In this document: positions 38,173 through 38,842 of the stretch, one piece after another
How the letters are laid out: the number at the start of each line of letters is the position of its first letter
Position numbering within the stretch: position 1 is the stretch's first letter
From: Psychrobacillus sp. FSL H8-0483
Lineage (GTDB): Bacteria; Bacillota; Bacilli; Bacillales_A; Planococcaceae
Assembly: GCF_038637725.1 (NCBI RefSeq)
Contig: NZ_CP152052.1
Span: forward strand, 1,099,501-1,163,500
DNA length: 64,000 nucleotides
Direction of reading: 5' to 3'
The notes under the pieces: generated by a model
Seen by the model: only the letters and a program-made list of their open reading frames with translations
The model's database searches: none
What the model was told of the DNA's origin: nothing
Translations under genes and position numbers: made by a program

Positions 38173-38637
38173 TTATCGATCTAAATAGGATTTCATCGTT
38201 TGCGGGCGTTTGTTTGTTACTCGCGCAGATTTTTTAGCAAAATGTGTAGTTTGGCTTGAGGACTTTTTGATGATAGGTTGAGGTCCTATATAATCGGTAA
38301 GAATTTGTCTCGCAGTTCTTAAATTCATTTTTCTAATGGGGTTCCGATATGTATCATCGAGATGCCCAAGATGTTGTAGTTGTTTAAAGTCCTCTTTTAC
38401 AGGGATAATATGAAAAAAATAATCTGCACATTGTATTAATACGGAGGATTGCTGTTGACTATTTTTCGGATTGCGAACAAAATGAAGTCCAATTTTTTTA
38501 GCTTTGTTTTCTACTATTAGTTTTTGAATTGCTAATTTCTTTAGTTCATAAAGCGGCTTATTGTCGATTGCCGTTTTAGCATGTCTATTTACGGTGTATA
38601 TTGCAGTAGCTATTAGTTCTTCAACGCTGGTGGCTAT
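38173..38637 (-). CDS. kre: Kre (YkyB) family regulator with a non-standard start codon
   Basis: Homologue of B. subtilis YkyB/Kre, which limits competence by affecting comK mRNA. The frame gives 154 residues from an ATA at 38637 (or 155 from an ATC at 38640), equal to the known length. Family blocks are VEELIATAIYTVNRHAKTA, KKIGLHFVRNPKNSQQQSSVL, DYFFHIIPVKEDF and LGHLDDTYRNP. AGGAGG lies 5 bases before ATC and 8 before ATA; a TAG in the same frame precedes it. No ATG, GTG or TTG occurs until codon 105. Either an AUA/AUC start is used or the sequence has an error. Confidence 0.78.
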   Translation of the reverse strand: MATSVEELIATAIYTVNRHAKTAIDNKPLYELKKLAIQKLIVENKAKKIGLHFVRNPKNSQQQSSVLIQCADYFFHIIPVKEDFKQLQHLGHLDDTYRNPIRKMNLRTARQILTDYIGPQPIIKKSSSQTTHFAKKSARVTNKRPQTMKSYLDR

Positions 38638-38842
38638 GATAAATTCCTCCTACGAAAGCTTTTTATATACTCCATCATACCAATTTTCCAAGTAATTGTG
38701 TAAACAAATCAAAAAAATATTGTACAAAAGGATTTTAACCTTTATTATCTAAAGAAAGTGAGAATTGTGTCGATAAAATGAGGTAAAGTATTATTTATAA
38801 ATTGTATCGTATTCTTCAGTGCGCTACATAATGGAGGACTAC

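Follow-up and report, generated by a model that had tools for sequence, protein, structure and literature searches.

The kre locus

The window, that is, the whole 64,000-nt stretch of the Psychrobacillus sp. FSL H8-0483 genome analysed here (NZ_CP152052.1, positions 1,099,501 to 1,163,500), contains on its minus strand an open YkyB/Kre frame that runs from 38649 to 38173 and is bounded by TAG and TAA. The features of the locus are the following.

38173..38640, minus strand: kre/ykyB coding frame (Pfam YkyB), 155 codons from ATC, 154 from ATA
38175-38173, minus strand: stop codon TAA of kre
38652-38650, minus strand: in-frame TAG upstream of kre
38646..38651, minus strand: Shine-Dalgarno (SD) sequence AGGAGG, overlapping the in-frame TAG; duplex with the 16S tail, -10.2 kcal/mol
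38638..38640, minus strand: candidate start ATC, 5 nt after GGAGG, in ungapped alignment with the ATG of most congeners
38635..38637, minus strand: candidate start ATA, one codon after ATC and 8 nt after GGAGG
38326..38328, minus strand: first in-frame canonical start, an ATG at codon 105 counted from ATC
38674..38682, minus strand: extended -10 element TGGTATGAT, with a poor -35 element, TACACA, from 38702

In a Pfam profile search the frame matches PF14177 (YkyB) with an E value of 2.3e-51 and 173.6 bits against a curated cut-off of 28.4, residues 12-122 of the stop-to-stop frame lying on profile positions 4-114 of 116. Between the TAG at 38652-38650 and codon 105 the frame contains no ATG, GTG or TTG, and a protein begun at codon 105 would have about 50 residues, with most of the YkyB domain gone. 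Both ATC and ATA are one base from ATG. The preliminary description had reported a kre homologue without an ATG, GTG or TTG start, aligning with YkyB/Kre along its length and giving the expected 154-155 residues, with only ATC (38640) and ATA (38637) near the AGGAGG, a TAG just upstream and the first ATG at codon 105; all of this proved right, coordinates included.

By eye, the extended -10 is present in 17 of the 18 congeners, G002 having TTGCTATGAT, and is absent in G012. An inverted repeat with A and T runs, also noted by eye and absent from the consensus scan list, lies 3′ of the gene at ~38092-38049. The -35 element is covered by TTGTTTACACAA (window 38707-38696, minus strand); several congeners have a perfect palindrome, TTGTGTACACAA, at this site and others have TTGTATACAA; the element is reminiscent of a GntR-type operator.

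The kre start across relatives

Each of the 19 Psychrobacillus genomes has one kre match, and in all 18 others the gene starts with ATG. The wider comparison covered 107 other kre loci, made up of 27 loci and the best 80 of 149 relatives, two sets that overlap in that at least 13 in-genus genomes occur in both; many Sporosarcina start kre with TTG. The oddity of the present copy goes beyond chance, since an in-frame ATG, GTG or TTG precedes the conserved block at 107/107 of these loci, and since the relative G011 shares 89 of the 104 residues encoded ahead of the first canonical start of this copy. These data support the earlier proposal that the gene is a kre homologue and that its one plausible start is a near-cognate AUH codon (AUA, AUC or AUU). 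That proposal had also named two findings that would speak against it, an ordinary start in relatives and a pseudogene here; the first was found, whereas signs of the second were not (see below). The AUH state occurs in 1 of the 19 Psychrobacillus genomes and so does not amount to a conserved means of regulation.

The two candidate codons differ in how they fit the genus. ATA requires a one-codon gap to align with the congeners' ATG, and the 5-nt spacing of ATC from GGAGG recurs at kre in 6 of the 18 congeners. Among 149 ATG frames with GGAGG in this genome, the spacing is 7 nt in 49, 8 nt in 38 and 5 nt in 5, so that ATA (8 nt) is close to the commonest spacing of 7-8 nt and that of ATC is uncommon. 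The SD duplex is the second weakest of the 19 kre leaders, only that of G011 being weaker, and it is not extended; the SD of ccpN in the same genome reaches -17.3 kcal/mol.

Putative AUH starts elsewhere in Psychrobacillus

To place kre among other genes, two 400-kb blocks of this genome were scanned for start codons against blocks of G011, each way. First scans gave many false flags from upstream-extended frames, antisense open reading frames and rRNA/tRNA regions. A stricter scan flagged 11/238 and 6/289 orthologues in this genome and 4/240 and 8/290 in G011; sorting by eye kept kre and slt here and a TetR-type gene in G011, and the other 26 flags were dropped. An AUH codon at the aligned start, with an SD, thus stands in 2/527 judged orthologues here (17 flags sorted; kre and the slt/YjbJ-like gene) and in 1/530 in G011 (12 flags sorted; the TetR-type gene). 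The two further genes are the following.

G000:C1:1096763-1096128 (L118 16128-16763), minus strand, ~3 kb outside the window: slt/YjbJ-like gene with an ATC start
G011, L143 2943-3587, minus strand: TetR-type gene with an ATT/ATA start, adjoining an efflux-pump-like frame

The first gene, which we take to be slt/YjbJ-like from its sequence, starts with ATG in 5, TTG in 7, GTG in 3, ATA in 3 and ATC in 1 of the 19 genomes (canonical in 15/19), a count that leaves out L170, a second slt-like match. The ATA genomes are G001, G013 and G018. Codons 2-9 differ between G001 and G013 at five positions, all synonymous, the chance of which is ~0.0004 if the segment is untranslated and changes are uniform; in these genomes translation could otherwise begin at an ATG, codon 10. 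The proteins of G013 and G018 are indistinguishable in the four genes used for a tree, and the two are therefore counted as one lineage, though they are separate assemblies. That unrooted tree, which includes kre and slt, places this genome as sister to the ATA-slt clade, with weak support (61) on the branch bounding the two; given these properties of the tree, we make no claim of one versus two AUH origins. For the second gene, presumably TetR-type as judged by eye, three orthologues start with ATG or TTG; a close orthologue occurs in 4/19 genomes only, and the best matches in the other 15 are 33-37% identical paralogues, which were not counted.

Two further genes appear to lack an ordinary start throughout the genus. 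In 19/19 genomes the stretch of infC from its SD to an ATG seven codons downstream is free of canonical starts, and in 19/19 the likely start of ccpN, upstream of yqfL (L235-L254), is ATC, preceded by a long SD that itself contains a GTG; L236, a second Kinase-PPPase match in G002, yielded no ccpN. AUH starts recur in Psychrobacillus and look tolerated there, as was measured for AUA and AUU in Staphylococcus aureus (PMC13009471); to judge by these comparisons they seem to be used, with which infC and ccpN agree.

Initiation machinery and RNA structure

An odd IF3 was rejected as a cause, the compared 81-residue segment being ordinary and 97.5-100% identical across the 19 genomes. An altered initiator tRNA was likewise rejected: an anticodon-arm pattern that allows any first anticodon base returned only CAT anticodons among the matches listed, with four copies in this genome, three each in G003, G008, G011 and G013, and none found in G016. 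An RNA structure hiding the kre start was discarded as well, a 77-nt fold giving z +0.66, with no special structure. None of these comparisons, of IF3, of the initiator tRNA or of RNA folding, sets kre apart, and any AUH start would be sensitive to IF3; the control of competence through an IF3-sensitive start, suggested in the preliminary description, is therefore a speculative role for this gene. IF3 favours strong codon-anticodon pairs, according to the available part of PMC10158994.

Constraint on kre and lesions in the assembly

The mean distance of this Kre protein to the other 18 is 0.274, within the range among the others (0.224-0.301), and pN/pS over alignment columns 11-105 is 0.099, compared with 0.104 in 141 other pairs. 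It has two private changes at otherwise invariant columns, both conservative (Y>F, K>R), where relatives have 0-3. There is no internal stop across the 155 codons. Distances, pN/pS and private changes thus give no sign of relaxed constraint, stops or frameshifts, a result that a very recent loss would also pass; kre is without visible decay on these sequence measures, and a loss late on the branch would leave no trace. The ComK family is found above cut-off in 19/19 genomes of the genus, with two copies in this one, and the ComEC family in 19/19.

Among 516 orthologues of at least 100 residues in the two blocks of this genome, seven were flagged for lesions, of which one was kept and six were dropped by eye, one of these (a 168-residue frame near G000:C1:2753870) being ambiguous. 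The clear nonsense codon lies ~60 codons into the match of a conserved oxidoreductase-like gene near G000:C1:1311822, outside the window, which is intact in G011; its presence in the same 400 kb shows that this assembly is not free of lesions or errors. No frameshift was flagged in the 234 orthologues of block 1, apart from which stands a 459-residue frame, o143, that is matched over residues 1-294 only and ends early. By target size, one nonsense codon predicts 0.05 start losses, and two were seen (P 0.001 for at least two; 0.03 if the nonsense count is taken at its upper 95% limit). Since the start of kre was the reason for choosing it, a fair test counts only slt, for which P is 0.047 for at least one start loss and 0.23 at the upper limit. 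The loss of two starts looks hard to account for by substitution lesions at so low a frequency, an argument that is supportive and not decisive.

Discussion

We favour, at a probability of roughly 0.6, the reading that kre in this species is functional and that, its ATG having been lost on the lineage of this species, it is translated from a weak AUC or AUA start at a reduced rate. The AGGAGG would direct initiation to AUC (38640) or AUA (38637), the codon being read by the usual initiator tRNA (anticodon CAU), and the output of Kre would be a fraction of the AUG level. Kre lowers the stability of comK mRNA in Bacillus subtilis and is itself repressed by ComK, as described in the available part of PMC4482431, so a lower level of Kre may make ComK easier to induce. 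The frame that would be translated is intact, and it is conserved together with the SD and the promoter ahead of it. The reading draws further on the AUH starts of other genes in the genus and on the rarity of lesions, and it is weakened by the unextended SD, by the uncommon spacing of ATC and by the nonsense codon in the same block.

The alternative that survives best is that kre is a recent start-loss pseudogene, in which the ATG is gone, no useful Kre is made and the frame has yet to decay. Such a history would fit the retention of ATG in 18/18 congeners, which confines the change to this branch, as well as the SD that has not been strengthened and the nonsense codon in another gene of the same block. 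However, kre shows no sign of relaxed selection and 155 codons have accumulated no internal stop, the change is to an AUH codon, a class that still initiates, and the same kind of start recurs in slt, where two relatives show only synonymous change after it. We consider start-loss unlikely. That the true start is ordinary and the assembly carries a wrong base here appears distinctly improbable: ATC or ATA is a single base from ATG, only one assembly is at hand and the nonsense codon of the conserved oxidoreductase-like gene in this block might be another such error, but the assembly is one contig with a completeness of 100, the early end of o143 aside it drew no frameshift flag in block 1, and one clear nonsense codon in 516 genes leads us to expect start-codon base errors in well under one gene; moreover, the slt start is of the same kind and is backed in relatives by three assemblies. 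Translation by another route, whether by readthrough of the TAG, by frameshifting out of an ATG further 5′ or by initiation inside the gene at codon 105, is very improbable. In its favour, a short upstream frame (ATGATGGAG...) ends, by eye, in a TAG overlapping the ATA, and the in-frame TAG has three TTG codons of the same frame ahead of it. However, the upstream ATG sits in the -10 box and is therefore not transcribed from the conserved promoter, and by eye its frame is not kept in relatives; the TTG codons, placed within the promoter or further 5′, are separated from kre by the TAG, and initiation at codon 105 would cost the protein most of a strongly constrained domain.

A functional kre with a weak AUH start would have several counterparts. 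Known infC genes have an AUU or AUA start with autoregulation by IF3. They resemble kre in the AUH start, and infC of Psychrobacillus likewise has no canonical start near its SD; they differ in that infC feeds back on IF3 and has this state in 19/19 genomes, compared with 1/19 for kre. In S. aureus, infC starts with AUA, and ccpN (AUA), citZ (AUA, NCTC 8325 lineage) and cvfC1 (AUU) are, like kre, intact Bacillales frames with an SD and an AUH start, according to the available part of PMC13009471. As given there, ccpN encodes a repressor and citZ is lineage-limited, as kre is here, and AUA/AUU starts work at ~10% of AUG, ccpN reaching as much as 30% in rich medium. Initiation in S. aureus was measured by Ribo-Ret and luciferase, whereas initiation at the AUH codon of kre is predicted; ccpN, cvfC1 and infC have extended SD pairing, unlike kre, and kre is absent from the four non-canonical sites in the same part of that report. 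The AUH start is conserved in ccpN, cvfC1 and infC, but not in citZ or kre. The ccpN start reported for S. aureus in the text available to us is AUA (PMC13009471), and that of Psychrobacillus is ATC.

Other reports bear on the codons and on the gene. An AUC-start rny fusion was expressed in B. subtilis, at a much lower level (PMC10303841, available part), and in a different organism and gene, pncA/bbe22 of Borrelia burgdorferi, mis-annotation was owing to an AUU start demonstrated by genetics, biochemistry and structure (PMC13398362, available part). The kre/ykyB gene of B. subtilis is of the same family and length (154 aa), in a genome that likewise has ComK, but starts with ATG, and the function was tested only there (PMC4482431, available part). 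Among titles and abstract openings, with partial coverage of the literature, no report was found of a kre with an AUA, AUU or AUC start.

The kre gene described here is a new example of a kind of weak start already known in Bacillales. A broader proposal, which we regard as rather doubtful, is that AUA, AUC and AUU starts recur in Psychrobacillus, are tolerated, are missed by annotation and turn down regulators and enzymes of the wall (kre, slt, the TetR repressor and ccpN), with a weak kre start that depends on IF3 and growth loosening competence in this species. Gene finders limited to ATG, GTG and TTG lose or truncate genes with AUH starts. If kre is truly AUH-started, it would be an allele that naturally supplies a low dose of a competence regulator, and kre and slt together would suggest that start codons change to AUH by drift and are then kept by selection, a process that may be checked across the genus by comparison alone.
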